DNA of 64,000 nt, from contig JAENYZ010000004.1 of assembly GCA_016841525.1 (NCBI GenBank), forward strand, positions 124,001 to 188,000, written 5' to 3'. The translations under genes were made by a program, and so were the position numbers. The notes below the pieces were generated by a model. That model made no database searches. It was given only the letters and a program-made list of their open reading frames with translations, and had not been told where the DNA came from. This stretch comes from Anaerolineaceae bacterium (lineage in GTDB: Bacteria; Chloroflexota; Anaerolineae; Anaerolineales; Anaerolineaceae). Every line of letters starts with the position of its first letter. Within the stretch, counting starts at the first letter, position 1. Shown here in pieces: positions 2,582 through 19,412 of this stretch.

Positions 2582-3160
2582 ATGATAAAAATACTAAAAC
2601 CTCACAAAACTTATTTAGCACCAATTATCGCTTGGATACTACTGATAATCTATTTATTTGCGCCAAGAATACATGCCTATAATATTGAGAAGGAAGGTAG
2701 ACCGCTTTCAAAAAATATTGATATCTCAGAAACCATGGAGAAAAATCATTGGTTTTTTATTGATGATTTTTCAAACATCGATAAAAAAAATAATTTGTAC
2801 CGTTTGTCTGGATGGGCATTTTCAACAGCAACCCCTGATGAGCCAACCAACGAATACAAAACCGAGATTGTCCTTTTTTCCAAGACCAAAAATTATGTTT
2901 TCGAATCACAACCGCACAAAAGAAATGATGTTGTTGACACTTTCAGCTATCTTGAGATTGAGATCATAAAACCCGGATTCTCCGGCGTGATAAACAAGTT
3001 TGCTATCAATTACGGTAATTTCTGTGTAGGATTACAGTTAACACACACAGAAAAAAACATCCGACAATTTTTTGTTACAAATAAAGTCCTTACCTATACA
3101 CCCTTCACCTTCGAATTGTCTGATGACACAAATTCATTATGTGAGGTTTATTTAAATTAA
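2582..3160 (+). CDS. Membrane-anchored protein of the surface-modification cluster
   Basis: The product is 192 residues with one N-terminal transmembrane helix (about 10-28) and an extracytoplasmic domain of about 160 residues. That domain contains the phrase YRLSGWAFS, which I associate with accessory domains of cell-surface glycan proteins, and two cysteines near the C-terminus. There is no clear ribosome site before ATG 2582. It lies about 170 bases upstream of the adenylation gene, in the same orientation and with the same AT-rich composition, so it probably belongs to the same surface pathway, perhaps as an assembly or substrate-presenting subunit. This role is inferred from context only. 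Confidence 0.5.
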   Translation: MIKILKPHKTYLAPIIAWILLIIYLFAPRIHAYNIEKEGRPLSKNIDISETMEKNHWFFIDDFSNIDKKNNLYRLSGWAFSTATPDEPTNEYKTEIVLFSKTKNYVFESQPHKRNDVVDTFSYLEIEIIKPGFSGVINKFAINYGNFCVGLQLTHTEKNIRQFFVTNKVLTYTPFTFELSDDTNSLCEVYLN

Positions 3161-3331
3161 AGGCCCATCATGCATAAAATAAGTTGTTTCGTATTTTCAC
3201 TCAAGGAATGAGACACTAAATCTTCTAATGATATATTTATAAAATCAACTTATTCATCAAAAACACTTCTCTTAATAATTTGTTCGATCCGAAAACTAAT
3301 AAATTAATTGATCAAAAACTCAGGTGAATCC

Positions 3332-4858
3332 ATGATTACAAATGTAGTAGACTTCTTAGAAAAATCTGCAGATAAATTTCCAGACAAAATTGCATTCACA
3401 GACAAAGACTCCCAAATTAGTTTTGGGGAATTAAGAGAACGAGCAAAAGCAATAGGGACTTGCCTATCAGAAACAATCAATCAACAAATAAGGCAACCCG
3501 TGGTGGTCGTTGCACAACGGAAAATATCCACAATAATCTCTTTCATGAGCATCCTCTATTCTGGGAATTTTTATGTGCCTGTCGACCCGAAAATGCCTTC
3601 AGAAAGAAAAAACTTAATAATTAAATCAGTAAACCCAGCCGCTATTATCACCACCGATCCTGGCGAGGAATTTTTAGTTGATGCCAATTTTTCTATCCCC
3701 ACCATATTATTAGAAGATTGCCTGGCACACCCTATTGCGGAAACCTTATTAGCATCAATTAAGGAGAAAATCTTAAGCCAGGACCCTCTATTTGCAATTT
3801 TCACCTCTGGCTCTACAGGGATCCCGAAATGTGTAGTTATTAAACACCAATCTGTGATAACTTTCGTAGAAAACTTTACACAGCTTTTCAACCTATCGGA
3901 TAATGTCACCTTGGGAAACCAGGCACCATTGGACTACGATGGATCTGTTAAAGAAGTATGCCTGACATTAAAGAATGCTTCTACAATGCATATTATTCCC
4001 AAGATGTTGTTTGGCTTTCCCATAAGACTCTTTGAATACCTGGATTTAAAGCATGTAAATACCATTAATTGGGCAACATCGGCTTTACGAATAATCGCTT
4101 CACATAAAGCCCTGGATTCTGCGAAACCATCCTACATCAATAAAGTTTTCTTCTCAGGTGAAGTAATGCCGGTAAAAGTTCTCAATTATTTTCTTAAACA
4201 TCTTCCCGAAACTTTATTTGTAAATCTTTATGGCCCAACTGAAACCACATTTAACTGCTCATATCATGTTGTTAATCAGGCTTACAATGAAGATGAGGTC
4301 TTGCCCATTGGCAGGAGTTTTCCAAACACTGAGATCATCATCCTTGATCAAGAAAACCTCCCTGTAAAATATGGGGAAAAGGGCGAAATTTGTGTAAGAG
4401 GAACATCGCTTGCGTTGGGATATTACAATAATCCGGATGCAACAAAAAAAGCCTTTGTTCAAAATCCTTTGCATAATAATTTTCCGGACCTTATTTACCG
4501 CACCGGAGATTTAGGAAAATATAACGATTTAGGAGAGCTGATTTTTATTTCCCGTATGGACCACCAGATCAAACACATGGGATACCGGATTGAACTTGGC
4601 GAGATTGAAACTGCCGTCAACGCACTACCTTTTGTTGACATTGGGGTCTGCATTTATGATGACATAAACGAAAAAATCGTATTATTTTATCAAGCCAATG
4701 AAACAAATGACAGAAGAATCATAACTCATCTAAAAGACAGGCTGCCAAAACATATGATCCCCAATTATCTTATTCATTTTGACAAATTGCCCTTAAAGTC
4801 AAACCTGAAGATTGATCGCGTAAAATTGAGGGAGAAATATTTCAATGAGATTGGTTAA
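3332..4858 (+). CDS. Amino-acid adenylation enzyme, DltA-like
   Basis: This is a stand-alone ANL-superfamily adenylation enzyme (508 residues, the size of DltA) that would activate an amino acid with ATP and load it on the carrier protein encoded at 5711. Core motifs are present: the phosphate loop TSGSTGIPK at 158-166, NLYGPTETTF from 298, YRTGDLG and the hinge region GYRIELGEIE near the C-terminal subdomain, and the catalytic lysine K493 in NLKID. Asp203 in LDYDGSV sits where amino-acid-activating domains place the residue that binds the substrate amine, so an amino acid rather than a fatty acid is likely. ATG 3332, with AGGTG just upstream, is preferred to TTG 3308. The substrate (D-Ala or another amino acid) cannot be read with confidence. 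Confidence 0.8.
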   Translation: MITNVVDFLEKSADKFPDKIAFTDKDSQISFGELRERAKAIGTCLSETINQQIRQPVVVVAQRKISTIISFMSILYSGNFYVPVDPKMPSERKNLIIKSVNPAAIITTDPGEEFLVDANFSIPTILLEDCLAHPIAETLLASIKEKILSQDPLFAIFTSGSTGIPKCVVIKHQSVITFVENFTQLFNLSDNVTLGNQAPLDYDGSVKEVCLTLKNASTMHIIPKMLFGFPIRLFEYLDLKHVNTINWATSALRIIASHKALDSAKPSYINKVFFSGEVMPVKVLNYFLKHLPETLFVNLYGPTETTFNCSYHVVNQAYNEDEVLPIGRSFPNTEIIILDQENLPVKYGEKGEICVRGTSLALGYYNNPDATKKAFVQNPLHNNFPDLIYRTGDLGKYNDLGELIFISRMDHQIKHMGYRIELGEIETAVNALPFVDIGVCIYDDINEKIVLFYQANETNDRRIITHLKDRLPKHMIPNYLIHFDKLPLKSNLKIDRVKLREKYFNEIG

Positions 4859-5684
4859 GGATATTCATCATTTAAACAAATTAATTAATGAGGTAAAAGA
4901 AAAATCACAAATCGTAACAACAAATTTCTTCCTTTTACCTAATAGGATCAATGATTATATTTATGAAAGGCGATTGTATTTCAATGACGATCCCAATAGC
5001 TTGATATTCTTCTGCGAAGAAGCTGATTTTTTTTATTTGTATTTCTTTTTAGTTGACTCTGAAAATCAAGAGAATTTTTCATGGCTTAATCATTTACAAA
5101 AACCAGTAATAATCGATTTGATTTCTAATGAAAAATCAAAGTCCCCAATTTTAGATTCTGTCGAGAATTATTGGATCTCAAATGGATTTAAACATTTCCG
5201 ATTAAACCGCCGCATGGCAGCTGATAGAACCTCAATAAAAACCGATGCCAACAGAGATAATAAACACAGTGGTGATCCTTATCATGTCCATTACGCAAAA
5301 AAAATTGACGCCCCTGAAGTACTGAAACTTTGGTGTAATAATTTAGATAGATACACAGCCCCCTTTCCGAACCTTGATGATCTTGCCATTCTAATTCAGA
5401 ATTCTCAAGTAATTGGTGGATATAACATGGACAATCAATTAGCAGCTGCACTTCAATTCAGTCAAATTCATCATTTATCCACCATTGAATATTTGGCAGT
5501 GAATCCTGATTATAGAAGAAAAGGATTTGCTCAGTTGTTATTGAATTTTTATTTTTCAAAATCAGACAACATAAAAAAATTTTACTTGTGGGTGAATGAA
5601 ATCAATGTGCCAGCGATAAGATTGTACAAAAGCAATGGCTATTATTTTGATGGTAAAATAAACCGCCAATTGAGATACCCTTAG
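4845..5684 (+). CDS. GNAT-family N-acetyltransferase inside the Dlt-like operon
   Basis: The product has 279 residues. The C-terminal ~100 form a GNAT fold: acetyl-CoA-binding motif A reads EYLAVNPDYRRKGFAQLLL, followed by the NVPAIRLYKSNGY element typical of motif B. The N-terminal ~150 residues are unassigned and may be a degenerate second GNAT half. The start overlaps the end of the adenylation gene by 14 bases and has a GAGGGAG site inside that gene, so the two are translationally coupled. A GNAT is not part of the canonical dlt operon. It may acylate the carrier-bound amino acid or an amino sugar of the acceptor; that role is inference. Confidence 0.7.
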   Translation: MRLVKDIHHLNKLINEVKEKSQIVTTNFFLLPNRINDYIYERRLYFNDDPNSLIFFCEEADFFYLYFFLVDSENQENFSWLNHLQKPVIIDLISNEKSKSPILDSVENYWISNGFKHFRLNRRMAADRTSIKTDANRDNKHSGDPYHVHYAKKIDAPEVLKLWCNNLDRYTAPFPNLDDLAILIQNSQVIGGYNMDNQLAAALQFSQIHHLSTIEYLAVNPDYRRKGFAQLLLNFYFSKSDNIKKFYLWVNEINVPAIRLYKSNGYYFDGKINRQLRYP

Positions 5685-5710
5685 TTATTTTCATAGATTG
5701 GAGAATTTAT

Positions 5711-5938
5711 ATGAATAAATTGCTTGAAATTTTATCTGATGTACGCCCTGATATAGATTTTTCACAAACTAACCTTCTCGTTGAAGACGGAATTCTTGAT
5801 TCGTTTGACATTGTCATGTTGGTTGGCGAGTTAAACGAGGCATATGAAATAAAAATTGGCGTTGAAGATTTAGTGCCAGAAAACTTTAATTCTGTTGATT
5901 CAATTATGAACTTGATTAATCGATTAAAAGACGAGTAA
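5711..5938 (+). CDS. Acyl/aminoacyl carrier protein, DltC-like
   Basis: This 75-residue carrier protein has the phosphopantetheine attachment site GILDSFD with Ser31 as the modified residue, in the LDSF/LDSM context seen in DltC rather than the DSL of fatty acid ACP. GGAG precedes ATG 5711. It lies between the acetyltransferase and MBOAT genes, so it should receive the aminoacyl group from the upstream adenylation enzyme as a thioester and present it to the membrane transfer step. Confidence 0.8.
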   Translation: MNKLLEILSDVRPDIDFSQTNLLVEDGILDSFDIVMLVGELNEAYEIKIGVEDLVPENFNSVDSIMNLINRLKDE

Positions 5939-5971
5939 TCGCTTGTACGATATTCAGAAACTTTAACGAGT

Positions 5972-7567
5972 ATGATCTTTACTTCCTCAATTTTTTGGAT
6001 TTTCTTATTTATTGTCTTACTTTTGTATTTTTTAATTCCGAAAAATAGCCAATGGATTGTGCTGCTAATTGCCAGTTATGTTTTCTATTTGTTTTCAGGC
6101 TATGGAATGGTTACATTTCTTCTGTTTACCACGACCATTAGTTTTTTTGCTGGCATTTTATTAGAAAAAATAAATAACAATTCAAAAGATTATCTAAACA
6201 ACAATAAATCTCTGACCAGAGAACAACGAAAAGAATTTAAACGCATTATTGAAAGAAAAAAGAGGATTATTATTTTTATCTCAATAATGCTAATTTTTAG
6301 CATCCTTGGCTTTTTGAAATACTACAATTTTTTCTCGCTGAACCTCACCACACTGTCAAACAAACTATCTGTCAATTTGGATTTACCAAGTCTCCAAATC
6401 CTGTTACCTTTGGGGATTTCATTCTATACATTTCAATCCGTGGGCTATATTATTGATATCAATCGAGGAAAAATCAAAGCCGACAAGAATTTTCCGAAAT
6501 TTGCCCTCTTTTTGTCTTATTTCCCACAAATTGTTCAAGGTCCGATTAGTCGCTATGACCAGCTGGCAAAACAACTCTACGAATCACATCCATTCAATTA
6601 CGATCGTGTAAAATTTGGCTTCCAGCTCGTATTGTGGGGTTTATTTAAGAAAATGGTCATCGCGGACAGATTAGCAATACCTGTAAATAATATTTTCAAC
6701 AATTATTTAGAATATGAAGGATTTAGTATATTTGTTGGAGTTTTATTTTTCTCCTTTCAAATGTATTGCGATTTTTCTGGAGGAATTGACATTGCAAGGG
6801 GTATCTCAGAGGTAATGGGAATAAATTTAGTTGAGAACTTTCAACGCCCTTTTTTTTCATCCTCAATTGATGAATATTGGCGACGTTGGCATATCACGCT
6901 TGGTTCCTGGATGAGAGAATATGTATTTTATCCACTCAGTTTATCAAAAGCTTTTACTAAATTAGGGAGATCTCTAAGAAAGACATTTGGAAATTATTTG
7001 GGTAAGATATTACCAACATTAATCGCGACAATCATTACGTTTCTAGCTGTTGGCATTTGGCATGGACCAAATTGGAAATATGTTGCATTTGGACTTTATT
7101 ATGGAATCCTAATTTCAGCTGGCATCTTTCTGGCACCAGTAAGAAAATCTACATTAAATAAACTAAAGATAAAAACCGATGGTTTCAGTTGGCGCCTATT
7201 AAATATACTCTTTGTCTTTTTTGCCACAACTATTGGCCGTTACTTTGCCCGTGCAGATGGCATAATGCAAGCAGGCAGCATGTTAAAACGAACCTTTTCT
7301 GTCTATAATCCCTGGGTATTTTTCGATGGCTCACTTTTAAAACTAGGATTAAGTCGACATGAGTATTCCATCGTTTTCATTTCAATCCTTGTTTTATTAC
7401 TTATTGAAATATTTCAAGAAAATGGCGTCCACATCCGAACAACCATTGCAAAGCAAAATTTGCTCTTTCGATGGTCACTATATCTTGCAGCAATTTTCAC
7501 GGTATTAATTTTTGGCATTTACGGCCCTGAATACGTTGCGACTGATTTTATTTATCAAGGCTTTTAA
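5972..7567 (+). CDS. MBOAT-family membrane O-acyltransferase, DltB/AlgI-like
   Basis: The product has 531 residues with about ten hydrophobic segments. Family hallmarks include FPQIVQGPISRY, the YWRRWHITLGSWMREYVFYPL region and the catalytic histidine H364 in VGIWHGPNW. MBOAT proteins of this class move an acyl group from a carrier or coenzyme A across the membrane to a surface polymer. Here the carrier gene ends 34 bases upstream and the SGNH-like partner starts 4 bases downstream, which is the dltB-C-D type of arrangement. It is longer than DltB (~400 residues) and nearer AlgI-type enzymes in size. Confidence 0.85.
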   Translation: MIFTSSIFWIFLFIVLLLYFLIPKNSQWIVLLIASYVFYLFSGYGMVTFLLFTTTISFFAGILLEKINNNSKDYLNNNKSLTREQRKEFKRIIERKKRIIIFISIMLIFSILGFLKYYNFFSLNLTTLSNKLSVNLDLPSLQILLPLGISFYTFQSVGYIIDINRGKIKADKNFPKFALFLSYFPQIVQGPISRYDQLAKQLYESHPFNYDRVKFGFQLVLWGLFKKMVIADRLAIPVNNIFNNYLEYEGFSIFVGVLFFSFQMYCDFSGGIDIARGISEVMGINLVENFQRPFFSSSIDEYWRRWHITLGSWMREYVFYPLSLSKAFTKLGRSLRKTFGNYLGKILPTLIATIITFLAVGIWHGPNWKYVAFGLYYGILISAGIFLAPVRKSTLNKLKIKTDGFSWRLLNILFVFFATTIGRYFARADGIMQAGSMLKRTFSVYNPWVFFDGSLLKLGLSRHEYSIVFISILVLLLIEIFQENGVHIRTTIAKQNLLFRWSLYLAAIFTVLIFGIYGPEYVATDFIYQGF

Positions 7568-7570
7568 GAC

Positions 7571-8602
7571 ATGAAGTTCAACCGCCCCCTTTTTAGAATT
7601 ATCGGATTCTTTATTATTTTCAGCATTTTCTTCGCCTATACAACACAGGTATTTACAAGGAAATGGGGCTACCAAGCCCAAACAACGATATTCTATCAAC
7701 AGCCTGAAGATTCTATCGATGTCTTGTTTTTAGGAGCAAGTGGTTTTGATTGGGGGGTTTCCCCACTGATATTATGGGAAGAAACTGGTGTAACCAGCTA
7801 TGTTCGTGCAATCGGGGCGACCACCTCAAGTATGATCTATTATTACTTTCTCGAATCTTTGAAATACCAGAACCCTGACATTGTTGTTCTTGATGCTTAT
7901 CATCTTGTTCGCTATTGGAATATTGATGATAATGAGCCTTCATACAGGCGTTCTTTTGAACCCTTAGATTTTTCGTTAATAAAACTCAAAGCTTTATTCG
8001 ATATCTCTAAAAATAGTGATTTTGACACGTTTATCAGTCTGCTATTCCCATTTTTTCGTTATCACAGCCGCTGGTCCGAATTGAGTAAAAATGATTTTGT
8101 GAAAACTGACAATCCAGAAGATTTAATTTTTAAGGGACAATTTATCGGTTTTGAAAAGTATGAAATTGATTATTCGGATGAATTTATGGCAGAAACTAAC
8201 GAGGCGAAAGGGATTAGTGAAGAATCACGTGATTATTATGAGAAAATAATTGAGATATGTAACGAAAAAGGGATCCATGTTGTTCTTATGTCAATGCCGA
8301 GGTTAGCAACAGCTGACTATGCGGAATACAATGCTGTTAAAACATACGCGGAAGAAAACAAAATAATTTTTGTTGATTATAATCTGCCAGAATTAATGAA
8401 TACTGTTGGTTTCGAGCCGGAAAAAGATATGATAGATAGTGGGCACATCAACACGTGCGGTGCTCAAAAGTTTTCATCCCATTTTGCACAAATCTTAGCT
8501 GAGAATTATTCTCTCGATGACAAAAGAAATGATCCAAAATTTGAAATTTGGGATCGCGATGCAGCACACCTCAGAGCTCTTTTAGACGAAAACTGTAATT
8601 GA
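7571..8602 (+). CDS. DltD/AlgX-like SGNH-fold surface acyl-transfer protein
   Basis: The product has 343 residues with an N-terminal signal anchor (about 7-24) and an extracytoplasmic SGNH-like domain. The nucleophile motif reads FLGASGFDWG, with Ser57 as the candidate nucleophile. Asp289 and His292 in DSGHINTCGAQKF match the C-terminal D..H block of DltD and AlgX-type proteins. It begins 4 bases after the MBOAT stop, so it is the last gene of the operon. By analogy with DltD it would transfer or proofread the aminoacyl group on the outer face of the membrane. Confidence 0.75.
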   Translation: MKFNRPLFRIIGFFIIFSIFFAYTTQVFTRKWGYQAQTTIFYQQPEDSIDVLFLGASGFDWGVSPLILWEETGVTSYVRAIGATTSSMIYYYFLESLKYQNPDIVVLDAYHLVRYWNIDDNEPSYRRSFEPLDFSLIKLKALFDISKNSDFDTFISLLFPFFRYHSRWSELSKNDFVKTDNPEDLIFKGQFIGFEKYEIDYSDEFMAETNEAKGISEESRDYYEKIIEICNEKGIHVVLMSMPRLATADYAEYNAVKTYAEENKIIFVDYNLPELMNTVGFEPEKDMIDSGHINTCGAQKFSSHFAQILAENYSLDDKRNDPKFEIWDRDAAHLRALLDENCN

Positions 8603-8734: not shown

Positions 8735-10861
8735 TTACCTGTTAATTAAAAAATAACGATGGACATCAACCAGGTCCTGCCCATCTGGCGCTGAAGAAAA
8801 TTCATAGCTGCCGTCAGGCTGCATGCGCCATCCCTTCAAATCCTCGCGTAAATACACTTCCAGCACATCGTCACGCAAATTTCGAATCATATCCTGGTTT
8901 TCGACCGGGAACAAGACTTCCACACGTTGATTTAAATTCCGGGGCATCAGGTCTGCACTGCCCAGATAGATAATTTCTTCACCATGATTATAGAAATAAT
9001 AAATGCGGCTGTGCTCTAAAAATCGCCCAATAACGCTCAAAACCTGGATATTTTCGCTTAGTCCTTCCACTCCCGGGCGCAAACAACAAATGCCACGAAC
9101 TATCAAATTGATTTTTACACCAATTTGCGATGCCTTATAAAGAAGCCTTATCATCTCCCCATCGACTAAAGCATTCATCTTCAGAATAATCCTGCCGTCG
9201 CCATGTTTTTTATGTTGGGCGATTTCCTGGTGGATCAATTCTACAATCTTGTCCCTGAGCTGCACCGGCGCCACCATTAGCTTGCGATAATTCTCCTTCG
9301 CAGAATACCCGGTCAGGTAATTAAACAGGTCTGTGGCATCCGCACCAATCGCATCATCGCTGGTGAACATGCCAATATCTTCATACAATTTTGCTGTTGT
9401 ATGGTTATAGTTCCCGGTCGCCATGTGGACATACCTGCGTATGTGCTCCCCCTCTTTGCGAACAACCAGAGCAATTTTTGAATGAGTCTTCAAGCCTAAC
9501 AACCCATAAGTTACGTGGACACCTTCCTGTTCAAGCAGTTTTGCCCATTCAATATTGCTTTCCTCATCAAAACGCGCCTTCAACTCCACCAAAACAGCAA
9601 CCTGTTTGCCGTAGTCGCGCCGTGCTTGCAAGAGCATTTTAACAACTGGAGAATTATGTCCAACCCTGTAAAGGGTCTGTTTGATCGCCATAACATTTGG
9701 ATCAATGGCAGCGTTATGTAAAAACTCAATAACAGGGTCAAATGACTCATAAGGGTGATGAAGCATAACATCATTCTCACGGATGACACTGAAAAATTGT
9801 TCTGGTGAGGCGTCCCGGTCAAACTGAAATGCTTCCGGCAAAACAGGGTTGAACTGCCTGTATTTCAAATCCTGACGGTCGATTTGAGAAAGCTGCGAAA
9901 GACTCCGGAATAACACCGGGTTGTCATAGGTATAAATAAACTGTGATTCAACATTGAGGTTATCCACCAGAATCTTAAGAACAGAATCCGGCATTTCTGA
10001 ACTTACCACCAGGCGAACAACAGACCCAAACCGCCGTCTGCGTACACTTTCTTCCATTACCTCAAGCAAATCCATCACTTCCAAACCTTGCAATTCGATC
10101 TCGGCATTGCGTACTACCTGGAAAGGATGTGCTTCAATAATCGACATGCCAGGGAACAAATCCGCAAGATTCGCCATGATCACTTCGCTGATCCACACAA
10201 AATCATGCTTTCTGTAATTCTTTACCCTGGGTGAAGGGTCATAAGCGGCTTTTTTGCAAGGAAGAAAATGAGGTAAGGATCCCGGCACCTTTAACCGTGC
10301 AAAATGTCGCTCGCCCTCCTGGTCTTCGACTACAACTGCGAGATTGTAACTTAAGTTTGATATGTATGGAAATGGGTGCCCCGGGTCGAAAGCCAAAGGC
10401 GTCAGCACCGGAAATATTACTTCTTTATAATATCCATCCACCCTGGATTTCTGTGCATTATTTAATTCATCATAATGATGAATCCTGATGCCAGCCTCAT
10501 CAAGTTGAGGTTTGATCATCTCGTAAAAACATTCGTGGGCTTCTGCAATGATTTTGCCTGCTTCCTTACGAATTTCACGCAATTGTTTTTGAGGTGTCAT
10601 ACCTTCAAAATAAAATCGCTCCTTATCATTATCAATGCCCATCGAAAGGCCGCCAACACGAACCATAAAAAACTCGTCAAGACCCGACCCCAATATGCTC
10701 AGGAAGCGAACGCGCTCAAGCAAAGGTGTCTCCGGGTTAGTCGCTTCAAAAAGCACACGCCGGAAGAACTTAAGCATGGACATTTCTCGACTGAGATAAT
10801 TCATCGGATCATCAATCAAGGCTGCCGGAGATTTAGTTCCCTCTGATTTTTCGTTTCCCAT
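8735..10861 (-). CDS. ppk1: Polyphosphate kinase 1
   Basis: This 708-residue enzyme polymerises the gamma phosphate of ATP into inorganic polyphosphate and can run in reverse. It has the normal length and order of the family: the N-terminal domain with the LGSGLDEFFMVRV block, then two phospholipase D-like halves. The two active-site histidines are H460 in GLKTHSK and H617 in LEHSRIYYF, followed by the LGSADLMPRNLNQRVE block. ATG 10861 is the first in-frame start. The gene is convergent with the DltD-like gene and divergent from the pyrophosphatase gene, so two phosphate enzymes flank one 284-bp control region. Confidence 0.95.
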   Translation of the reverse strand: MGNEKSEGTKSPAALIDDPMNYLSREMSMLKFFRRVLFEATNPETPLLERVRFLSILGSGLDEFFMVRVGGLSMGIDNDKERFYFEGMTPQKQLREIRKEAGKIIAEAHECFYEMIKPQLDEAGIRIHHYDELNNAQKSRVDGYYKEVIFPVLTPLAFDPGHPFPYISNLSYNLAVVVEDQEGERHFARLKVPGSLPHFLPCKKAAYDPSPRVKNYRKHDFVWISEVIMANLADLFPGMSIIEAHPFQVVRNAEIELQGLEVMDLLEVMEESVRRRRFGSVVRLVVSSEMPDSVLKILVDNLNVESQFIYTYDNPVLFRSLSQLSQIDRQDLKYRQFNPVLPEAFQFDRDASPEQFFSVIRENDVMLHHPYESFDPVIEFLHNAAIDPNVMAIKQTLYRVGHNSPVVKMLLQARRDYGKQVAVLVELKARFDEESNIEWAKLLEQEGVHVTYGLLGLKTHSKIALVVRKEGEHIRRYVHMATGNYNHTTAKLYEDIGMFTSDDAIGADATDLFNYLTGYSAKENYRKLMVAPVQLRDKIVELIHQEIAQHKKHGDGRIILKMNALVDGEMIRLLYKASQIGVKINLIVRGICCLRPGVEGLSENIQVLSVIGRFLEHSRIYYFYNHGEEIIYLGSADLMPRNLNQRVEVLFPVENQDMIRNLRDDVLEVYLREDLKGWRMQPDGSYEFSSAPDGQDLVDVHRYFLINR

Positions 10862-11006
10862 AATAAAACCTTAAGGCTCGTTAGCGGAATAATGTGAGTC
10901 AAGTATACATCAAATTTTCATAAGCTCTTAATAAAAACAGGACTATAATATGATTTGTAAAACATGCAAATAAATCAAAAATTTACAGCCTTGACCGAAA
11001 TAAGGA

Positions 11007-11035
11007 TTGACAAAGATCATTTTGTCGTTAACAAT
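11007..11035 (+). promoter_or_regulatory. Probable promoter of the pyrophosphatase gene
   Basis: TTGACA at 11007-11012 is followed after 16-17 bases by TAACAAT, about 110 bases upstream of the start codon. The -35 is consensus and the -10 is weak. Confidence 0.4.
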
Positions 11036-11099
11036 AGAACTTAACAATAACCATAAGATCAGTTGTTATTTAAAAAATTAACCTGCAATATTTTTGTAG

Positions 11100-11119
11100 G
11101 GTGCGATGAAAAACGCACC
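11100..11119 (+). repeat. Short hairpin in the pyrophosphatase leader
   Basis: GGTGCG (11100-11105) pairs with CGCACC (11114-11119) around an eight-base A-rich loop. It lies about 15 bases upstream of the ribosome site. It may affect translation or may simply be a dispersed repeat. Confidence 0.4.
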
Positions 11120-11145
11120 GCACCACCATTAAGGAGAGAAAAAGA

Positions 11146-11772
11146 ATGGAAGCCCACACAAATTTCCCCGCTCCCTTTTACCGCTGGCGGCCGCATCCAT
11201 GGCATGGTCTGGAAATTGGGCCTGAACCACCGGACCGCGTCCTTGCTTATATAGAGATGACGCCTTTTGACTACATCAAATACGAGGTCGATAAGGTCAC
11301 AGGCTATTTGCACGTTGACCGACCGCAGCGCACATCCTCTCTTCCGCCAACCTTGTACGGCTTCATTCCCCGCACTTTCTGCGACAAGCGGGTGAAGGCA
11401 CTTTCACAAAATGCAATTCGCGGCGATGGCGACCCCCTGGACATTTGTGTTGTCAGCGAGAGGCCAATCAACCGGTCTGAAATCTTCTTAAATGCCGTCG
11501 TGGTTGGTGTGATACAGCTTCTCGACCATGATGAAGCCGATGATAAAATTATTGCCATCCTCGAAAATGATCTTGTTTACGGGCATATCCGGGATATTGA
11601 GGAACTGCCAAAGGTGCTTGTGGAGCGAATGCAGCATTATTTTAAGACTTATAAGATGATCCCCGGTGAAAAACCTGGAATAGAACTGATCAATGTTTCA
11701 GGACCTGAAAAAGCCAAGAAAATTGTCAATGCTGCCATCCAGGATTATGAAGATGCCTTTGGGAGCGTATAG
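11146..11772 (+). CDS. ppa: Inorganic pyrophosphatase (family I)
   Basis: The product hydrolyses pyrophosphate to phosphate in the cytoplasm. The family I signature [11 protein letters not shown] supplies metal-binding aspartates, and [13 protein letters not shown] matches the substrate-binding segment. At 208 residues it is slightly longer than E. coli Ppa (about 176), with extra sequence at the N-terminus ([15 protein letters not shown]). A strong AAGGAGAG site precedes ATG 11146. It is divergent from ppk1 and followed 86 bases later by trmD in the same direction. Confidence 0.93.
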
Positions 11773-11858
11773 AGCCAGCATTTATTTTGAATTAAAAATT
11801 AGTGTGGTAAACGATCAAAACGCTTGTCAGGAATCAAGCTTCACGCTAGAATTCAGAC

Positions 11859-12602
11859 ATGCGTTTTGATATTTTTTCCCTGTTTCCAGAAATATTTCCC
11901 CCTTATCTTAATGCAAGCATCCTGAAAAAAGCCCAGGATGCCGGCCACCTCGAAGTTCACACTCATAACATTCGAGATTATACGACCGACAAACACCATA
12001 CAACCGATGACACCCCTTATGGCGGGGGCGGCGGCATGGTGATGAAACCCGAACCTATTTTTTCAGCAGTAGAGGATGTTTTAGGAATACCGGCAAAGTG
12101 CCCGGTTATTTTAATGTCCCCCCAGGGGCGCTTATTCAACCAGGAGATCGCTTTTGAATTGGCGCAATACGACCATCTGGCTTTGTTATGCGGACGTTAC
12201 GAAAGCCTCGACGAACGTATTCGCCAGCACCTTGTGACTGATTCGATTTCCATTGGTGATTACGTCCTGACGGGTGGTGAACTGCCGGCATTAATCATTA
12301 TCGATGCTGTCACCCGTTTGCTCCCAGGCGTTCTTGGTGACCCACAAGCAACCGTAGATGATTCACATGCAACCGGGATCCTTGAATACCCACATTACAC
12401 CCGACCGCCTGAATTTCGCGGCTGGGGTATACCCGATGTCCTGCTTTCCGGCAACCATGCTGAAATTGATCGCTGGCGTCGGCATGAAGCCTTACGGCGC
12501 ACCCTCGAACAAAGACCTGATCTGCTCATCAAAGCTGATTTAAGCCAGGAAGATCTGGCTTTTTTAGAAAGTTTGGGCTATCACCCTCAACAACAAGGCT
12601 AA
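11859..12602 (+). CDS. trmD: tRNA (guanine37-N1)-methyltransferase
   Basis: This SAM-dependent SPOUT methyltransferase makes m1G37 in tRNA to prevent frameshifting. At 247 residues it has normal length. Diagnostic segments are [13 protein letters not shown] at the start, [46 protein letters not shown] in the trefoil-knot SAM site, and the C-terminal [19 protein letters not shown]. It is not linked to rpsP, rimM or rplS as in many bacteria. A sugar-type MFS gene follows after 19 bases. Confidence 0.96.
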
Positions 12603-12621
12603 TCAACAAAATGGAGACTTC

Positions 12622-13920
12622 ATGGAAACAAAAAAAATGAGCTATCTGAAAACTTTTTTACTTGGGTTTGGATTTTTCGGTGTCAGCGTCATTTGGTCCG
12701 TCTATAACGCCTTCGTTCCGTTATTTCTGGATGAGCGTTTTGGGCTGCAAGCAGGATTTATTTCATTTATCATGGTCTTAGACAACATTGCAGCATTAAT
12801 CATCCAACCCCCTTTAGGAGTGTTTTCTGATCGACTGCGGTCACCCATCGGGAGACGTCTACCCTTTGTGGTTGTGGGTGCACCTGTGGCAGCAGCCATG
12901 TTTGGGCTAATCCCCTACGCACAGGTCTTGCCATTATTTATCTTCAGCTGTATCACATTGCTGCTGGCGATGGCGTTCTGGAGAACGCCCGTTATCGCCC
13001 TCATGCCCGATATCACCCCTTCCAACAAACGCTCCGAGGCAAATGGCGTGATTAACCTGATGGGCGGGCTGGGAACCGTACTGGCAACATTAATCGGCGG
13101 TCCATTATATCGCATCGACCCCAGCTATCCTTTTTTCTTCGCAGCGGGGCTGGTATTTTTCGCTGGTATTCTCCTATTAATCTTTGTGCGCGAACCAAAA
13201 GAATACATCTCTTCCAAGCTGCACCTTGCAGACAAAGGCGAAGGCACACAAATGGAGAACAAGGTGTTTAAGAACCTTGGAAACGTCTTTACACAAAAAG
13301 ATAAAAGCCCAATGTTCATTCTTCTGGCAATTTTGTTCTGGTTTATTGCCTACAATTCACTGACTACCTTCTTCACCTTGTTTGGCGTGAACCATCTTGG
13401 TCTGGACGGTGGCGACAGCGCCTTCCAAATTTCCTATATCGGTTTGATCTTCATGCTCATGGCTATACCTGCTGGGTTCCTGGCCAGTAAATTTAAAAGG
13501 AAAAACGTGATCATGACAGGCATCTGGATTATGATTGCCTGTGTGCTGCTGATGTATGTCATCCCAACTGAAGTGCTGACCATAAAGTTTGCCTCATTAA
13601 TGGGGTCAGGGTTTTACGTGCTTTCAATCATATTAATGTTTGCCGGAATTGGTTGGGCGATGATCAATGTGAACTCTCTTCCAATGGTAGTGGATATGAC
13701 TGATGACGATCATATTGGCACCTACACAGGTCTTTATTATTTCTTCTCGCAGCTGGCAGCAACCTTCGGACCGGTATTTTTCGGTTGGACAATTCAACTT
13801 TCAAACAATGATTACCGCCTGATGATGGTCATTGCTCCCTTCTTCTTTTTGCTGGCATTTTTTATGATGATGGGTGTGCGTCGCGGCGAAGTGCAATCAT
13901 TACCAGTAGAAAAAGGATGA
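12622..13920 (+). CDS. MFS transporter, SLC45/GPH-like
   Basis: The product has 432 residues and about twelve transmembrane helices. The first loop reads GVFSDRLRSPIGRRLPFVVVG, the RS.GRR.P form of loop 2-3 seen in SLC45 and glycoside-cation symporters rather than drug exporters. The second half has its own SKFKRK loop. Late in the protein PMVVDMTDDDHIGTYTGLYY resembles the conserved acidic segment of that group. A sugar or sugar-like substrate is therefore likely but unproven. ATG 12622 has GGAG upstream. Confidence 0.75.
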   Translation: METKKMSYLKTFLLGFGFFGVSVIWSVYNAFVPLFLDERFGLQAGFISFIMVLDNIAALIIQPPLGVFSDRLRSPIGRRLPFVVVGAPVAAAMFGLIPYAQVLPLFIFSCITLLLAMAFWRTPVIALMPDITPSNKRSEANGVINLMGGLGTVLATLIGGPLYRIDPSYPFFFAAGLVFFAGILLLIFVREPKEYISSKLHLADKGEGTQMENKVFKNLGNVFTQKDKSPMFILLAILFWFIAYNSLTTFFTLFGVNHLGLDGGDSAFQISYIGLIFMLMAIPAGFLASKFKRKNVIMTGIWIMIACVLLMYVIPTEVLTIKFASLMGSGFYVLSIILMFAGIGWAMINVNSLPMVVDMTDDDHIGTYTGLYYFFSQLAATFGPVFFGWTIQLSNNDYRLMMVIAPFFFLLAFFMMMGVRRGEVQSLPVEKG

Positions 13921-13950
13921 TGAGGTTTTGTGAAAATAGAATTTACTACC

Positions 13951-13979
13951 TTGTCCACAAACGAAAAGACCAATATAAT
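13951..13979 (+). promoter_or_regulatory. Promoter of the nucleoside importer operon
   Basis: TTGTCC (13951-13956) and TATAAT (13974-13979) are separated by 17 bases, about 60 bases upstream of the lipoprotein start. It is a near-consensus sigma-70 type promoter. Confidence 0.65.
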
Positions 13980-14038
13980 ATACATGATGGCTTAACTAAA
14001 GCCACACTAAAAACAATCCTGATTTAGGAGGAGAAAAT

Positions 14039-15070
14039 ATGTCGAAAAAATTTTTACTCATTTTGTCAATGGTTGTGATCGGCAGCATGCTGTTTGTTGC
14101 CTGTGGTCCAACCGCAGAAGAAGAAGGCGTTTATGTTTGTCAGATCACCGACACAGGTGGTATTGACGACAAATCGTTCAACCAGACTGCCTGGAAAGGC
14201 ATCCAGGATGCTGAAGAAGCATTAGGCATTCGAAGCAACTACCTGGAATCCCAGGAAGTAGCCGACTACGAGAAAAACCTGAATGCATTCCAGGAAGAAG
14301 GATGCGACCTGATCATCACTGTTGGTTTCCTTATCGGTGATGCAACAGCAGCCGCAGCCGTAGCAAACCCGGATACCTATTACTCCATCGTTGACTACGC
14401 CTACGAAGAGACCATCCCCAATGTCGTTGGACAGGTCTTCGAGACTGATGAAGCTGCATTCCTCGCTGGTTACGCAGCTGCAGGCGTGACACAAACGGGC
14501 AAGGTCGGTACATTCGGCGGTCTGCCGATCCCCACAGTCACCATCTTCATGGATGGCTTTGCCAAGGGTGTCGCAAAATACAACGAAGTTAAAGGCACCA
14601 ACGTTGAAGTCCTCGGTTGGGATTTAGACAACCCGGATGCCGGCTTATTCAGCATGGACTTTGATGACCAGCAAAAAGGTCGTGAGTTAGCTGTATCCCT
14701 GATGGACGAAGGCGCAGACATCATCATGCCCGTTGCCGGCCCTGTCGGCCTCGGTGCAGCTGCTGCTATCCAGGAACGTGGCAATGCCTATGTGATCGGT
14801 GTAGACTCAGACTGGTTCTTAACCAGCCCTGAATATGCTGACATCGTCCTCACATCCGTCATGAAATTGATGGATGCAACCACATTCCAGGTCATTGAAA
14901 ATGTCATCAACGACAGCTTCGAACCAGGTGTAATTGTCGGCACCCTTGAAAATGAAGGTGTCGCACTTGCACCATTCCATGACAATGCAAATCTCATTTC
15001 AGCTGAATTACAGGCTGAACTTGATCAGCTACAAGCAGACATCATTGCCGGTACCATTGTTTTAGACTGA
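14039..15070 (+). CDS. BMP/PnrA-family nucleoside-binding lipoprotein
   Basis: This is the substrate-binding subunit of a purine-nucleoside type ABC importer, anchored to the outer face of the membrane. The signal ends in the lipobox LFVAC with Cys22. The BMP family signature is clear: QITDTGGIDDKSFNQTAWKG near the N-terminus, IITVGFLIGDAT, and the FGGLPIPTVTIFMDGF segment. The gene has a strong AGGAGG site and is followed by a perfect palindromic terminator before the ATPase gene, which would allow higher expression than the membrane components. Substrate assignment rests on family and operon, not on residues. Confidence 0.88.
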   Translation: MSKKFLLILSMVVIGSMLFVACGPTAEEEGVYVCQITDTGGIDDKSFNQTAWKGIQDAEEALGIRSNYLESQEVADYEKNLNAFQEEGCDLIITVGFLIGDATAAAAVANPDTYYSIVDYAYEETIPNVVGQVFETDEAAFLAGYAAAGVTQTGKVGTFGGLPIPTVTIFMDGFAKGVAKYNEVKGTNVEVLGWDLDNPDAGLFSMDFDDQQKGRELAVSLMDEGADIIMPVAGPVGLGAAAAIQERGNAYVIGVDSDWFLTSPEYADIVLTSVMKLMDATTFQVIENVINDSFEPGVIVGTLENEGVALAPFHDNANLISAELQAELDQLQADIIAGTIVLD

Positions 15071-15084
15071 CGATGACAAATCTA

Positions 15085-15124
15085 AAATTCGGGTTGGAGA
15101 TATCTCCAACCCGAATTTTTTATA
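15085..15124 (+). terminator. Perfect palindromic terminator or attenuator
   Basis: A 34-base perfect palindrome (15085-15118) is followed by a T-run. It lies between the binding-protein gene and the ATPase gene of one operon, so it probably attenuates read-through rather than ending the operon. Confidence 0.8.
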
Positions 15125-15167
15125 AATGTACTTATACCCATCATATTAATTCAGAAACGGGGATAAA

Positions 15168-16727
15168 ATGACTCCTATTCTCCAATTAAAAGGAATCACA
15201 AAAAGATTTCCCGGTGTTCTTGCGAATGACCACATTGATCTCGACCTTCGTAAAGGGGAGATCCTGGCATTGCTTGGTGAAAATGGCGCTGGCAAGACAA
15301 CCTTGATGAATATTTTATACGGCCTTTATCAACCTGATGAAGGTGAAATTTTAATTGAGGGCGAAAAGGTCACCATCGATTCCCCCACGGATGCAATAAA
15401 AACTGGCATCGGCATGGTCCACCAGCACTTTATGCTCATTCCAGTTTTCACTGTTACTGAAAACGTCATGCTCGGTGAGGAAACCATAAAGTATGGGGAT
15501 TTCCTGGATCGAAAAAAAGCAGCTAAGAGAATTATGGACATTTCCGAAAAATATAATCTCCAGGTTGCACCAAATGACTACATCCGGGACCTGCCAGTAG
15601 GTGTCCAACAACGCGTAGAAATTATCAAACTTCTTTATCGAGATGCAGAAATCCTCATTTTTGATGAACCTACTGCCGTCCTCACACCGCAAGAGGCGGA
15701 TGAACTTTTCTCAATCATGCGCTCTCTCTCCGATCAAGGCAATTCGATCATTTTCATTACCCATAAACTGCGGGAGGTTTTAGACATTTCAGACCGTATC
15801 ATGGTCATTCGACGGGGTGCTGTTGTTGGCGAAACCACACCCGACCAGGCTGATAAAAACTCTCTGGCAGCAATGATGGTCGGGCGAGATGTCAACCTGG
15901 AAGTTGAAAAAACCGACAAAGAACCCGGCGATCTTGTTTTCTCAGTAAAAAACCTGATTGTTGCGGATAAATTTCAGAATATTGTTGTTGACAATGCCTC
16001 GTTGGATGTACATGCTGGGGAAATCGTGGGAATTGCTGGTGTCCAGGGTAACGGGCAGACGGAACTAGTCGAGGCAATTACCGGTCTGAGGAAGTCAGCA
16101 GAAGGTAAAATTACCTTGCTAAGCCAGGACATAACAAAGGCTTCCCCACGACAAATTACAGAACTTGGTTCAGCGCACGTCCCGGAAGATCGACAGGCTG
16201 ACGGCCTGGTGCTGCCCTTCCCTGTTGCTGAAAACCTGGTGCTCTGCACATATTACAAAGAGCCTTTTTCAAAAGGCGTGATTTTACAATACAAAACGAT
16301 TTTAGACCACGCTGAGAAGCTCATTGAGGATTTTGATATTCGCACGCCCAGTGCAATGACACCGGTCAGCTCCCTTTCTGGCGGCAACCAGCAAAAGGTG
16401 ATCATTGCGCGGGAATTGTCCCGCCCTATTGATTTTTTAGTTGCATCTCAACCGACACGCGGGCTTGATGTCGGCTCCATCGAATACATCCACAAACGTA
16501 TTGTCCAAAAACGAGATGAAGGCTGTGCGGTACTGCTCGTATCACCTGAACTTGATGAAATTATGGAGCTCTCCGACCGTATCGTCGTTATGTACCGGGG
16601 ACAAATCATCGCTGACTTGCCAAATAAAGAAATCACTAAAGAGCAAGTGGGTTTGATGATGGCAGGTGTCTTACCGGAGGAAGCATTAGCCGAAGGCGAT
16701 CAGCACGCTGTGGAACCAGCGCTTTAA
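15168..16727 (+). CDS. Nucleoside ABC importer ATPase (two ATPase domains)
   Basis: The product has 519 residues in two fused ABC domains, as in RbsA, YufO and NupO. Domain 1 has Walker A LGENGAGKT, a divergent signature LPVGVQQRVEI and Walker B LIFDEPTAVL. Domain 2 has a degenerate Walker A (AGVQGNGQT), a proper signature LSGGNQQKV and a Walker B region DFLVASQPTRGLDVG. This asymmetry is typical of the family, where only one site hydrolyses well. The next gene starts 12 bases later. Confidence 0.9.
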   Translation: MTPILQLKGITKRFPGVLANDHIDLDLRKGEILALLGENGAGKTTLMNILYGLYQPDEGEILIEGEKVTIDSPTDAIKTGIGMVHQHFMLIPVFTVTENVMLGEETIKYGDFLDRKKAAKRIMDISEKYNLQVAPNDYIRDLPVGVQQRVEIIKLLYRDAEILIFDEPTAVLTPQEADELFSIMRSLSDQGNSIIFITHKLREVLDISDRIMVIRRGAVVGETTPDQADKNSLAAMMVGRDVNLEVEKTDKEPGDLVFSVKNLIVADKFQNIVVDNASLDVHAGEIVGIAGVQGNGQTELVEAITGLRKSAEGKITLLSQDITKASPRQITELGSAHVPEDRQADGLVLPFPVAENLVLCTYYKEPFSKGVILQYKTILDHAEKLIEDFDIRTPSAMTPVSSLSGGNQQKVIIARELSRPIDFLVASQPTRGLDVGSIEYIHKRIVQKRDEGCAVLLVSPELDEIMELSDRIVVMYRGQIIADLPNKEITKEQVGLMMAGVLPEEALAEGDQHAVEPAL

Positions 16728-16739
16728 GGAGGTGCATCT

Positions 16740-18023
16740 TTGGATAAAAAACAAGAAAAACAAAAAGACGCAGGAAAGATATTAATAGAAGAACTGAACC
16801 AGGATGAAAAGGAATCAGCAACGCATAAGCGTTCCTTTTGGAATGTTATAACCATCCCCTTATTAGCGATTCTCTCCGGCATAATAATCGGCGCAATATT
16901 AATTGCTGCAACCAGCACAAGCGTCTATGCTGCCTTTGGACAATCCTTTGGCAAGGGTATCACAACTGCTTTCTCTGAAATCGGCAGCGCATACGCATCG
17001 CTCTTCACCGGTTCCATCGGTGATCCCGTCCGTATTTTCAGCGCATTGTTTTCAGGCGATAAAGAACAAATTTACAAAGCCATCAACCCCTTTCTTGAAA
17101 GCCTTGTGCAGGCGACGCCCTACATCTTTGCAGGGCTTGCTGTGGCACTGGCCTTCAGAGCAGGTTTGTTCAATATCGGTGTTGAAGGACAGCTTTTCAT
17201 TGGGGCAGCTTGTGCGACCTTTGTTGGCTATGCTGTGAAAGGTCTGCCTGTTTACATACATATGCCGTTGGCATTTATTGCCGGCGGATTGGGCGGGGCT
17301 CTGTGGGGTTTTATCCCTGGTTTTCTGAAAGCAACCACAGGCGGTCATGAAGTGATCAACACTATCATGATGAATTACATTGCTTTCCGCCTGACAGAAT
17401 GGCTGCTTTCTGGCCCAATGACACGCCCAGGGTCAGGGGGTATGCCGATCAGCCCACTCATTGAAGAAAGCGCACAAATTCCGCAATTTTTCCCATCGCC
17501 AATTCGATTTCACCTCGGCTTCTTTTTTGCACTGGGTTTTGCCTGGCTTATCTGGTGGCTGCTCTTCAAAACAAAATGGGGGTTGAATATGCGCACCGTT
17601 GGCACCAACCCTCGAGCTGCCAAATACGCCGGCTTGAGCGTAGCAAAAACGACCATGATAGGAATGGCAATTTCAGGTGGATTGGCTGGGTTGGCTGGTG
17701 CTATTCAAATTTTAGCAGTCAACCGCAGTATGGCCCTTGGGCTTTCTTCAGGATACGGTTTTGACAGCATTGCCCTTGCATTAATTGGCAATAACCATCC
17801 GGTCGGTGTCGTTCTCGCGTCAATTCTGTTTGGAACCTTGCGAAATGGTGCAACACGGATGATGGTTGTTTCCAGAATCCCCATTGATATCGTTGACGTA
17901 TTACAGGCAATCATTTTGATGCTGGTAGCTGCACCGGCAATCATCCGAACAATTTATCGCCTTAAAGAACCCAAAGAGGAAGAAACCACAGTCTTTGTAA
18001 GCGGCTGGGGAGGAGGTCAATAA
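16740..18023 (+). CDS. Nucleoside ABC importer permease 1
   Basis: The product is a 427-residue integral membrane permease of the YufP/NupP (branched-chain amino-acid-like) family. It has a charged cytoplasmic N-terminus, then about ten helices, with LALAFRAGLFNIGVEGQLFIGA and TTGGHEVINTIMMNYIA as family landmarks. The start is TTG at 16740: no ATG is near, and a full AAGGAGGTG site sits six bases upstream. Its stop overlaps the next start by one base (TAATG). Confidence 0.88.
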   Translation: MDKKQEKQKDAGKILIEELNQDEKESATHKRSFWNVITIPLLAILSGIIIGAILIAATSTSVYAAFGQSFGKGITTAFSEIGSAYASLFTGSIGDPVRIFSALFSGDKEQIYKAINPFLESLVQATPYIFAGLAVALAFRAGLFNIGVEGQLFIGAACATFVGYAVKGLPVYIHMPLAFIAGGLGGALWGFIPGFLKATTGGHEVINTIMMNYIAFRLTEWLLSGPMTRPGSGGMPISPLIEESAQIPQFFPSPIRFHLGFFFALGFAWLIWWLLFKTKWGLNMRTVGTNPRAAKYAGLSVAKTTMIGMAISGGLAGLAGAIQILAVNRSMALGLSSGYGFDSIALALIGNNHPVGVVLASILFGTLRNGATRMMVVSRIPIDIVDVLQAIILMLVAAPAIIRTIYRLKEPKEEETTVFVSGWGGGQ

Positions 18024-19300: not shown

Positions 19301-19326
19301 TCAAACAACCAATTCAAAATAATTAG

Positions 19327-19361
19327 AAACCCATTCGGTAATATTCGACCGAATGGGTTTT
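19327..19361 (+). terminator. Rho-independent terminator
   Basis: A 13-bp perfect stem (19327-19339 with 19348-19360) with an eight-base loop and a short T-tail ends the nucleoside importer operon. TATAAT at 19375-19380 just downstream may be the -10 of the next gene. Confidence 0.8.
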
Positions 19362-19412
19362 GGATTCTGATGAGTATAATAAAAATTGTCCTTTGAGAAA
19401 ATGAGGAAAAAT

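Follow-up and report, generated by a model that had tools for sequence, protein, structure and literature searches.

The dlt operon, whose products DltA, DltC, DltB and DltD carry out teichoic acid D-alanylation, is the described system closest to the locus considered here, and D-alanylation is known to make surfaces less anionic. Two further systems handle an amino acid while it is bound to a carrier: linear gramicidin synthetase (LgrA), with its formylation-adenylation-carrier arrangement, caps the carrier-bound amino acid by N-acylation, and the butirosin proteins BtrI, BtrJ and BtrK provide a ligase, a modifying enzyme and a free-standing carrier. Here we describe an operon of five genes, at 3332-8602 on the forward strand of a 64,000-nucleotide stretch of an Anaerolineaceae genome (the window; contig JAENYZ010000004.1 of assembly GCA_016841525.1, positions 124,001 to 188,000), which resembles dlt in four of its five functions and carries a tandem GNAT acetyltransferase gene between the adenylation enzyme and the carrier. 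The gene order is conserved in other bacteria, the amino acid pocket of the adenylation enzyme differs from that of DltA, and in related operons the GNAT is exchanged for other modifying enzymes. Our favoured reading, which we judge to have about an even chance of being right, is a Dlt-type, carrier-dependent O-aminoacylation of a surface polymer, probably not a teichoic acid, in which the amino acid would be capped before export.

Anatomy of a Dlt-like operon with a tandem GNAT

The adenylation enzyme (508 residues, 3332..4858) starts at the ATG at 3332, in a frame already open from a TTG at 3308. The GNAT gene (279 residues, 4845..5684) overlaps it by 14 bases and is followed after 26 bases by the carrier protein (75 residues, 5711..5938), after a further 33 bases by an MBOAT O-acyltransferase (531 residues, 5972..7567) and after 3 bases by a DltD-like SGNH protein (7571..8602), assigned by fold. 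The five open reading frames (ORFs), their order and strands, the overlap and the tight spacing, all given in a preliminary description of this DNA, survived a re-check of ORFs and spacing, as did its remark that the block is more AT-rich than its neighbours: the five genes have a GC of 0.32-0.38, compared with 0.407 in the left flank, 0.460 at 8735-20000 and 0.447 over the whole window. The block as then delimited, 2582-8602, holds for the five genes from 3332 onwards, whereas its start at 2582 is that of a separate ORF.

Each of the adenylation enzyme, carrier and MBOAT counts Dlt families among its best matches, which together with the DltD-like fold of the last protein supports the preliminary assignment to Dlt-like machinery, but all three fall below the curated Dlt cut-offs. 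The adenylation enzyme matches Pfam AMP-binding at 202.7 bits and TIGR01733 (AA-adenyl-dom) at 318.9 bits, barely above the cut-off of 317.4, and misses both DltA models (PRK04813, 305.8 bits against 476; TIGR01734, 293.5 against 559.85); its best solved relatives are modules of non-ribosomal peptide synthetases (NRPS). It also scores 169.7 bits against the exosortase A-associated ligase model TIGR03098, far below the cut-off of 592.35. The carrier passes PP-binding (21.2 bits, cut-off 20.8) and misses both DltC models, PRK05087, its best NCBIfam match (33.2 bits, cut-off 68), and TIGR01688 (24.4, cut-off 52.35). Its LDSF site, as first described, is the predicted phosphopantetheine site, with Ser31 in DGILDSFDIV invariant in 77 aligned sequences. 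The MBOAT matches PF03062 at 62.2 bits, LTA_dltB below that model's cut-off and the DltB model TIGR04091 at 148.5 bits, missing the cut-off of 375; it retains a catalytic-type histidine. Alignment with two solved DltB sequences runs through the WHG motif and identifies this residue, already singled out in the preliminary description, as His364; both H307 and H364 are invariant in 74 aligned sequences.

No Pfam or NCBIfam family matches the last protein above its cut-off. The structural model (predicted local distance difference test score, pLDDT, 87.2) has an SGNH fold with an N-terminal helix at residues 5-28, and DltD is among its fold matches (6pfx at Foldseek rank 2; 3bma at Z 12.3, root-mean-square deviation (rmsd) 5.1, 246 residues aligned), which agrees with the earlier DltD/AlgX-like label; DltD is not singled out, as other SGNH proteins match equally (best Z 12.8). 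In 68 aligned DltD-like proteins, the candidate triad Ser57-Asp289-His292 is kept at His292 in all, at Asp289 in 65 and at Ser57 in 20. The nucleophile place is occupied by Cys (GDCE) in 48 of the 68, chiefly in operons whose adenylation enzymes have DAKC-type codes (for example the protein at 9958-11166 of locus L092), and by Ser in the window and in operons with an enzyme gene between adenylation enzyme and carrier.

The GNAT protein has an Acetyltransf_1 match (44.1 bits) in its C-terminal half, and its model (pLDDT 90.3) consists of two GNAT-like halves with the acetyl-CoA motif RRKGFA in the second. Over the full length (residues 1-279) it superposes on mycothiol synthase MshD (2c27; Z 18.4, rmsd 4.7, 261 residues aligned, 14% identity) and equally on MAB_4324 (7q3a; Z 18.4, rmsd 3.8, 254 residues), while the top match by Foldseek E-value is VipF, a tandem GNAT of Legionella. 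MshD acetylates a cysteinyl amine, whereas a carrier-bound substrate is proposed for the window protein, and the modelled common fold does not by itself give the substrate. Among 13 GNAT homologues, at 16-31% identity to the window protein, the strict acetyl-CoA motif RxxGx[GA] is kept in nine, and that of L036 has Lys for Arg. Of 15 operons, 11 have overlapping adenylation enzyme and GNAT genes, two have them apart and two are unclear. Distances between adenylation enzymes co-vary with those between GNATs (r 0.86 over 10 thinned operons; none of 2000 permutations reached this value), a pattern that partners should show, but that would also arise for any pair of genes that move jointly. Relatives of the GNAT were absent from viral contigs, and a search of plasmids for the carrier matched four records, three of them partial.

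The amino acid pocket

Ten pocket residues were read from an alignment with solved DltA chains, which replaced genuine DltA proteins from donor genomes since no adenylation enzyme passed the DltA cut-off in 11 donor genomes or in 40 genomes around one donor. Window residues were assigned to GrsA positions by the position list in the accessible part of PMC12283262, with the register compared against the DltA chains. The resulting code, DGKNFSLFNK, comprises D203, G204, K207, N246, F273, S275, L299, F307, N308 and K493; D203 and K493, named in the preliminary description, fall at code positions 235 and 517, so the amine-binding Asp is present. In Bacillus cereus DltA the methyl group of D-alanine sits in a cavity lined by Leu, Met and Cys, according to the accessible part of PMC8972799, and four solved DltA chains carry FDLSVM and FCGE as the corresponding motifs. 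The window enzyme has Gly204, Lys207 and Ser275 there; the amine-binding Asp is thus kept while the D-alanine methyl cavity is not. With the cavity residues replaced and a Lys in the pocket, the amino acid is probably not alanine.

Lys or Arg replaces the cavity Met in all 17 adenylation genes paired with a GNAT, all 12 paired with a decarboxylase and all 29 with an adjoining racemase gene, and in one of the two paired with a formyltransferase (the other has Leu). The most likely substrate is predicted to be acidic, of Asp or Glu type. This prediction comes from the pocket Lys, the aspartate-type racemase and the relation to BtrK found in related operons, not from a matched code: DGKNFSLFNK fits neither of the codes given in the accessible part of PMC12283262, DAQDLGVVDK (Glu/Gln) and DLTKVGHVGK (Asp/Asn). 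The Anaerotignum code DSKDMVIVDK has five of 10 positions in common with DAQDLGVVDK of that source. Six more substrate codes were sought in the literature and only DAQDLGVVDK was found; DAKDLGVVDK, considered as a Glu code, was not found in the literature searched and is not used as support.

A separate class of adenylation enzyme with the code SMSYLALDIK (SMTYMALDIK in L127), lacking the amine-binding Asp, was seen in L114, L124, L126-L130 and L145. A gene of 425-449 residues adjoins the adenylation gene on the same strand in six of these eight loci, and in L127 a gene of 428 residues lies on the other strand; the one in L114, the only one tested, is a seryl-tRNA synthetase homologue.

An exchangeable slot between adenylation enzyme and carrier

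The preliminary description pointed to a GNAT embedded in this operon; it is not a peculiarity of this genome. When named genomes were scanned using the carrier alignment, 243 places with a carrier relative emerged, of which the best 80 were fetched; these, mostly from Lachnospiraceae, Oscillospiraceae, Anaerotignum and other Clostridia, and the loci from searches of donor genomes underlie the slot counts given below. A search for the five-gene order found adenylation enzyme, GNAT, carrier, MBOAT and DltD-like genes in 11 other non-duplicate loci (L019, L020, L031, L033-L039 and L041), three from Anaerolineae, seven of Anaerotignum type and one from other Clostridia; L038 belongs to the cultured strain Anaerotignum lactatifermentans DSM 14214. 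Because the order recurs to this extent, it is not due to chance and the GNAT is a stable part of it.

The same slot holds different enzymes in related operons. Among 94 adenylation genes of the family, the window included, 17 are paired with a GNAT (a count that includes near-copies, the adenylation enzymes of L034, L038 and L039 being at least 98.6% identical), 12 with a decarboxylase and two with a formyltransferase; 29 have an adjoining racemase gene and 34 fall under others, which include cut loci and three with a DltD-like gene between adenylation enzyme and carrier (L046, L047 and L063; 495-507 residues). The GNAT occupies the slot in Chloroflexota, Bacillota and Bacteroidota. In 11 of the 12 decarboxylase cases a fold-III pyridoxal phosphate decarboxylase directly follows the adenylation gene; the twelfth, L123 (86-3039), has the order adenylation enzyme, carrier, decarboxylase. 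The L123 adenylation enzyme carries Ile in place of the amine-binding Asp and Arg where the window enzyme has Lys207.

Slot enzymes were recognised with profiles from the window, L020, L105, L042, L051 and L070, and racemases with a profile grown from L092, a racemase being counted when it lay on the same strand and ended between 300 bases inside and 700 bases before the start of the adenylation gene. The slot was set by hand in L019, L140 and L123, owing to overlapping gene calls or a different order. The total of 94 is 93 plus the window, after removal of the two adenylation genes of L146, identical to those of L149, of 14 loci from repeat genomes (L032, L050, L111-L113, L115-L122 and L135), of adenylation fragments shorter than 350 residues (which excludes L080, its adenylation enzyme being split over two frames, and L147, where a formyltransferase fragment is the neighbour) and of two unrelated AMP-ligases. 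Absence of a slot enzyme means throughout that none was seen.

On a tree of the adenylation enzymes (56 rows, with operons lacking a slot enzyme thinned), slot state changes seven times, against a mean of 25.9 when shuffled. The tree and the slot states together indicate that the modifying gene changes while the adenylation enzyme stays related, so that the slot is swappable and the GNAT is one of several alternative enzymes. The window enzyme groups with those of L031 (GNAT) and L070 (formyltransferase), which have one common pocket code, DVKIMSLCNK; the forks have support of 88 and 86, and the window enzyme lies within no starred fork.

Three decarboxylases tested contain Orn_Arg_deC_N and Orn_DAP_Arg_deC domains. 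They score 163.7-171.0 bits against the exosortase A-associated decarboxylase model TIGR03099, far below its cut-off of 478.45. When a profile of nine slot decarboxylases was compared with solved chains, BtrK came first (192.1 bits; next enzyme 172.5). BtrK is an L-glutamyl-[BtrI ACP] decarboxylase that converts carrier-bound glutamate to carrier-bound gamma-aminobutyrate (GABA), according to the accessible part of PMC7857480. The window differs from the butirosin system in having a GNAT instead of a decarboxylase, an AMP-binding adenylation enzyme as ligase, and an MBOAT and an SGNH protein thereafter. Both slot formyltransferases have Formyl_trans_N matches, and that of L070 matches the LgrA formylation domain at 42.9 bits. 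The window would share with LgrA the logic of capping; its proteins stand alone and its slot enzyme is a GNAT, not a formyltransferase.

Clostridial operons of the racemase type have adenylation enzyme, carrier, MBOAT and DltD-like genes of the same families downstream of a gene of the aspartate racemase family; they differ from the window in lacking a visible slot enzyme, in their adenylation code (DAKCAGLGMK or close variants) and in the Cys (GDCE) at the nucleophile place of the DltD-like protein. Of the 29 adenylation genes with an adjoining racemase gene, 23 lead straight to the carrier, three lie at a locus edge (L056, L090 and L110) and two have an unlabelled ORF next (L077 and L143); the remaining one, in L072, has no called carrier. 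The L092 racemase, the only one compared with solved chains, has aspartate racemase 1jfl as its closest match (154.4 bits), and it scores 191.2 bits against the CuyB cysteate racemase model, narrowly above the cut-off of 190.

In 396 genomes of the class, the window's own included, the GNAT was found in two (E 1e-8), the adenylation enzyme in three (E 1e-90) and the carrier in three (E 1e-20); in the third operon (G036, L019) the GNAT, at 16% identity, falls below the E 1e-8 cut-off, and the adenylation gene is frameshifted. Two genomes of the same genus and seven of the same family gave no GNAT (E 1e-8), carrier (E 1e-6) or adenylation enzyme (E 1e-90); a distant adenylation enzyme was found in the same-family genome G202 at 7.8e-63. 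The low GC and the absence of matches in these nine sampled genomes suggest that the operon was acquired.

Proposed mechanism and alternative explanations

In the favoured reading, the adenylation enzyme would activate an amino acid other than alanine, likely of Asp or Glu type and held by Lys207, and load it onto Ser31 of the carrier; the tandem GNAT would then use acetyl-CoA to acylate the amine of the residue held on the carrier. N-acylation is placed after loading because Asp203 of the pocket binds a free amine. The MBOAT, through His364, would take over the N-acyl-aminoacyl group and bring it from the carrier side to the outer face, where the membrane-anchored SGNH protein, with its putative triad Ser57/Asp289/His292, would move it onto polymer hydroxyls. 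The predicted product is an amine-blocked ester of net negative charge, in contrast to the cationic D-alanyl ester. This scheme accounts for all five genes and for the exchange of slot enzymes, its substrate and chemistry being predictions. The preliminary description had suggested that the GNAT acts on the tethered amino acid; that part gains indirect support because a formyltransferase or a BtrK relative fills the same slot in related operons, while the amino acid is probably not alanine. As the adenylation enzyme, carrier and GNAT are small proteins with no predicted membrane parts, and their joint reaction could be followed by mass, this step lends itself to direct study.

The polymer is probably not a teichoic acid. 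Two teichoic acid polymerase families were searched in the window's own genome (97.3% complete): PF04464 gave no match and PF00884 a single one, a protein of 520 residues whose sulfatase domain begins at residue 6. Since this leaves no room for an N-terminal membrane part, the protein is not LtaS-like, and the earlier proposal of a target other than teichoic acid is thereby supported.

Several observations weigh against the favoured reading. Lys at the place of the DltA Met also occurs in 19 of the 34 other adenylation genes, with neither a slot enzyme nor an adjoining racemase seen, so it is no predictor of a GNAT, and, with four positions of the window code unlike those of the nearest codes, the amino acid here may not be the one its nearest relatives use. 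The acetyl-CoA motif is altered in three of the 13 GNAT homologues (L109, L067 and L073), and in the fetched stretches of two of these loci, the Bacteroidales L067 and L073, adenylation enzyme, GNAT and carrier form a triad with no MBOAT or DltD-like genes, that of L067 adjoining ketoacyl synthase III and short-chain dehydrogenase genes. BtrK is only 20 bits ahead of diaminopimelate decarboxylases, and lysA is the best NCBIfam match of the three decarboxylases tested (170.6-187.5 bits, below the cut-off of 297.9). The substrate of BtrK is attached via its side-chain carboxylate, which sits uneasily with a pocket that keeps the Asp for the alpha-amine. Among solved chains, sugar N-formyltransferases come closest to the L070 formyltransferase (73.9 bits), ahead of the LgrA domain.

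The last of these points also bears on what we regard as the foremost alternative, though an unlikely one: that the GNAT acetylates either the amino acid in its free form or an amino sugar, in the polymer or in a precursor of it; one operon would then make both modifications. Glucosamine N-acetyltransferases are among the tandem GNAT fold matches (5kga, Z 15.7), and the best sequence matches of the GNAT are diamine, spermidine and ribosomal-protein GNATs. Retention of the amine-binding Asp would however make an N-acetyl amino acid a poor substrate for the adenylation enzyme, BtrK, to which the slot decarboxylases are closest among solved chains, works on a carrier-bound residue, and the LgrA formylation domain is among the relatives of the slot formyltransferase. 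Slightly less probable still is that the GNAT is an aminoacyl-transferase, which would move the carrier's aminoacyl group onto a soluble acceptor or into a second product. Domains of MprF and of lysyl- and alanyl-phosphatidylglycerol synthases at Foldseek ranks 19, 20 and 38, and aminoacyl-tRNA-dependent peptide synthases at Z 13.3, are consistent with such a role; the closest whole-length matches are nevertheless tandem GNATs, the acetyl-CoA-dependent MshD and MAB_4324, the strict acetyl-CoA motif persists in nine of 13 homologues, and a formyltransferase, also an N-acyl transferase, uses the same slot.

We consider it improbable that the product of the cluster is a small secreted lipo- or acyl-peptide and that no polymer is modified. 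The Bacteroidales triads, one of them beside the ketoacyl synthase III and short-chain dehydrogenase genes given above, and the NRPS modules among the solved relatives of the adenylation enzyme would suit such a product, whereas in the window and 11 other loci a DltB-like MBOAT and a DltD-like protein come next, and none of the five window proteins matches a condensation or thioesterase family in Pfam and NCBIfam scans. Least probable of all is a plain D-alanine dlt operon with the GNAT as an unrelated passenger, since the Dlt families among the best matches and the DltD fold match are offset by the missed DltA, DltC and DltB cut-offs, the lost D-alanine cavity, and a GNAT that keeps one slot across three phyla and co-diverges with the adenylation enzyme.

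A wider and more tentative proposal, to which we give somewhat less than even weight, is that a large non-alanine Dlt family in gut Clostridia, and scattered elsewhere, attaches acidic amino acids to surface polymers as esters and adjusts the charge of the decoration by swapping the on-carrier enzyme: D-aspartate with the racemase, an N-acetylated acidic residue with the GNAT, an N-formyl residue with the formyltransferase, and GABA or beta-alanine with the decarboxylase. A pocket for acidic amino acids combined with a capping enzyme, if true, would reverse the usual effect of D-alanylation or tune surface charge by one gene. The family is well represented, the best 80 of the 243 carrier relatives coming mostly from gut Clostridia, and may therefore bear on resistance to host peptides and on surface chemistry. 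A literature search found no description of these operons, which is weak evidence of novelty as subscription papers were mostly outside its reach.

The ORF at 2582..3160 on the forward strand encodes 192 residues with an N-terminal hydrophobic stretch (by eye) and lies 171 bases upstream of the adenylation gene. Searches of Pfam and NCBIfam at E 0.1 gave no match for it, and no evidence for membership of the operon was found, phmmer giving zero matches in 4197 ORFs of related loci; a likeness by eye to the L070 protein at 9588-10103 was dropped for want of a phmmer match. Promoter-like sites numbered 33 against 27.3 expected and terminator-like sites four against 4.0. A second MBOAT operon with an AMP ligase lies elsewhere in the same genome (contig C5, L021, 7313-13222); besides the MBOAT it encodes a carrier-looking protein of 78 residues with no Pfam match, a DHHW-like protein (under cut-off) and a further protein similar to the latter by eye.

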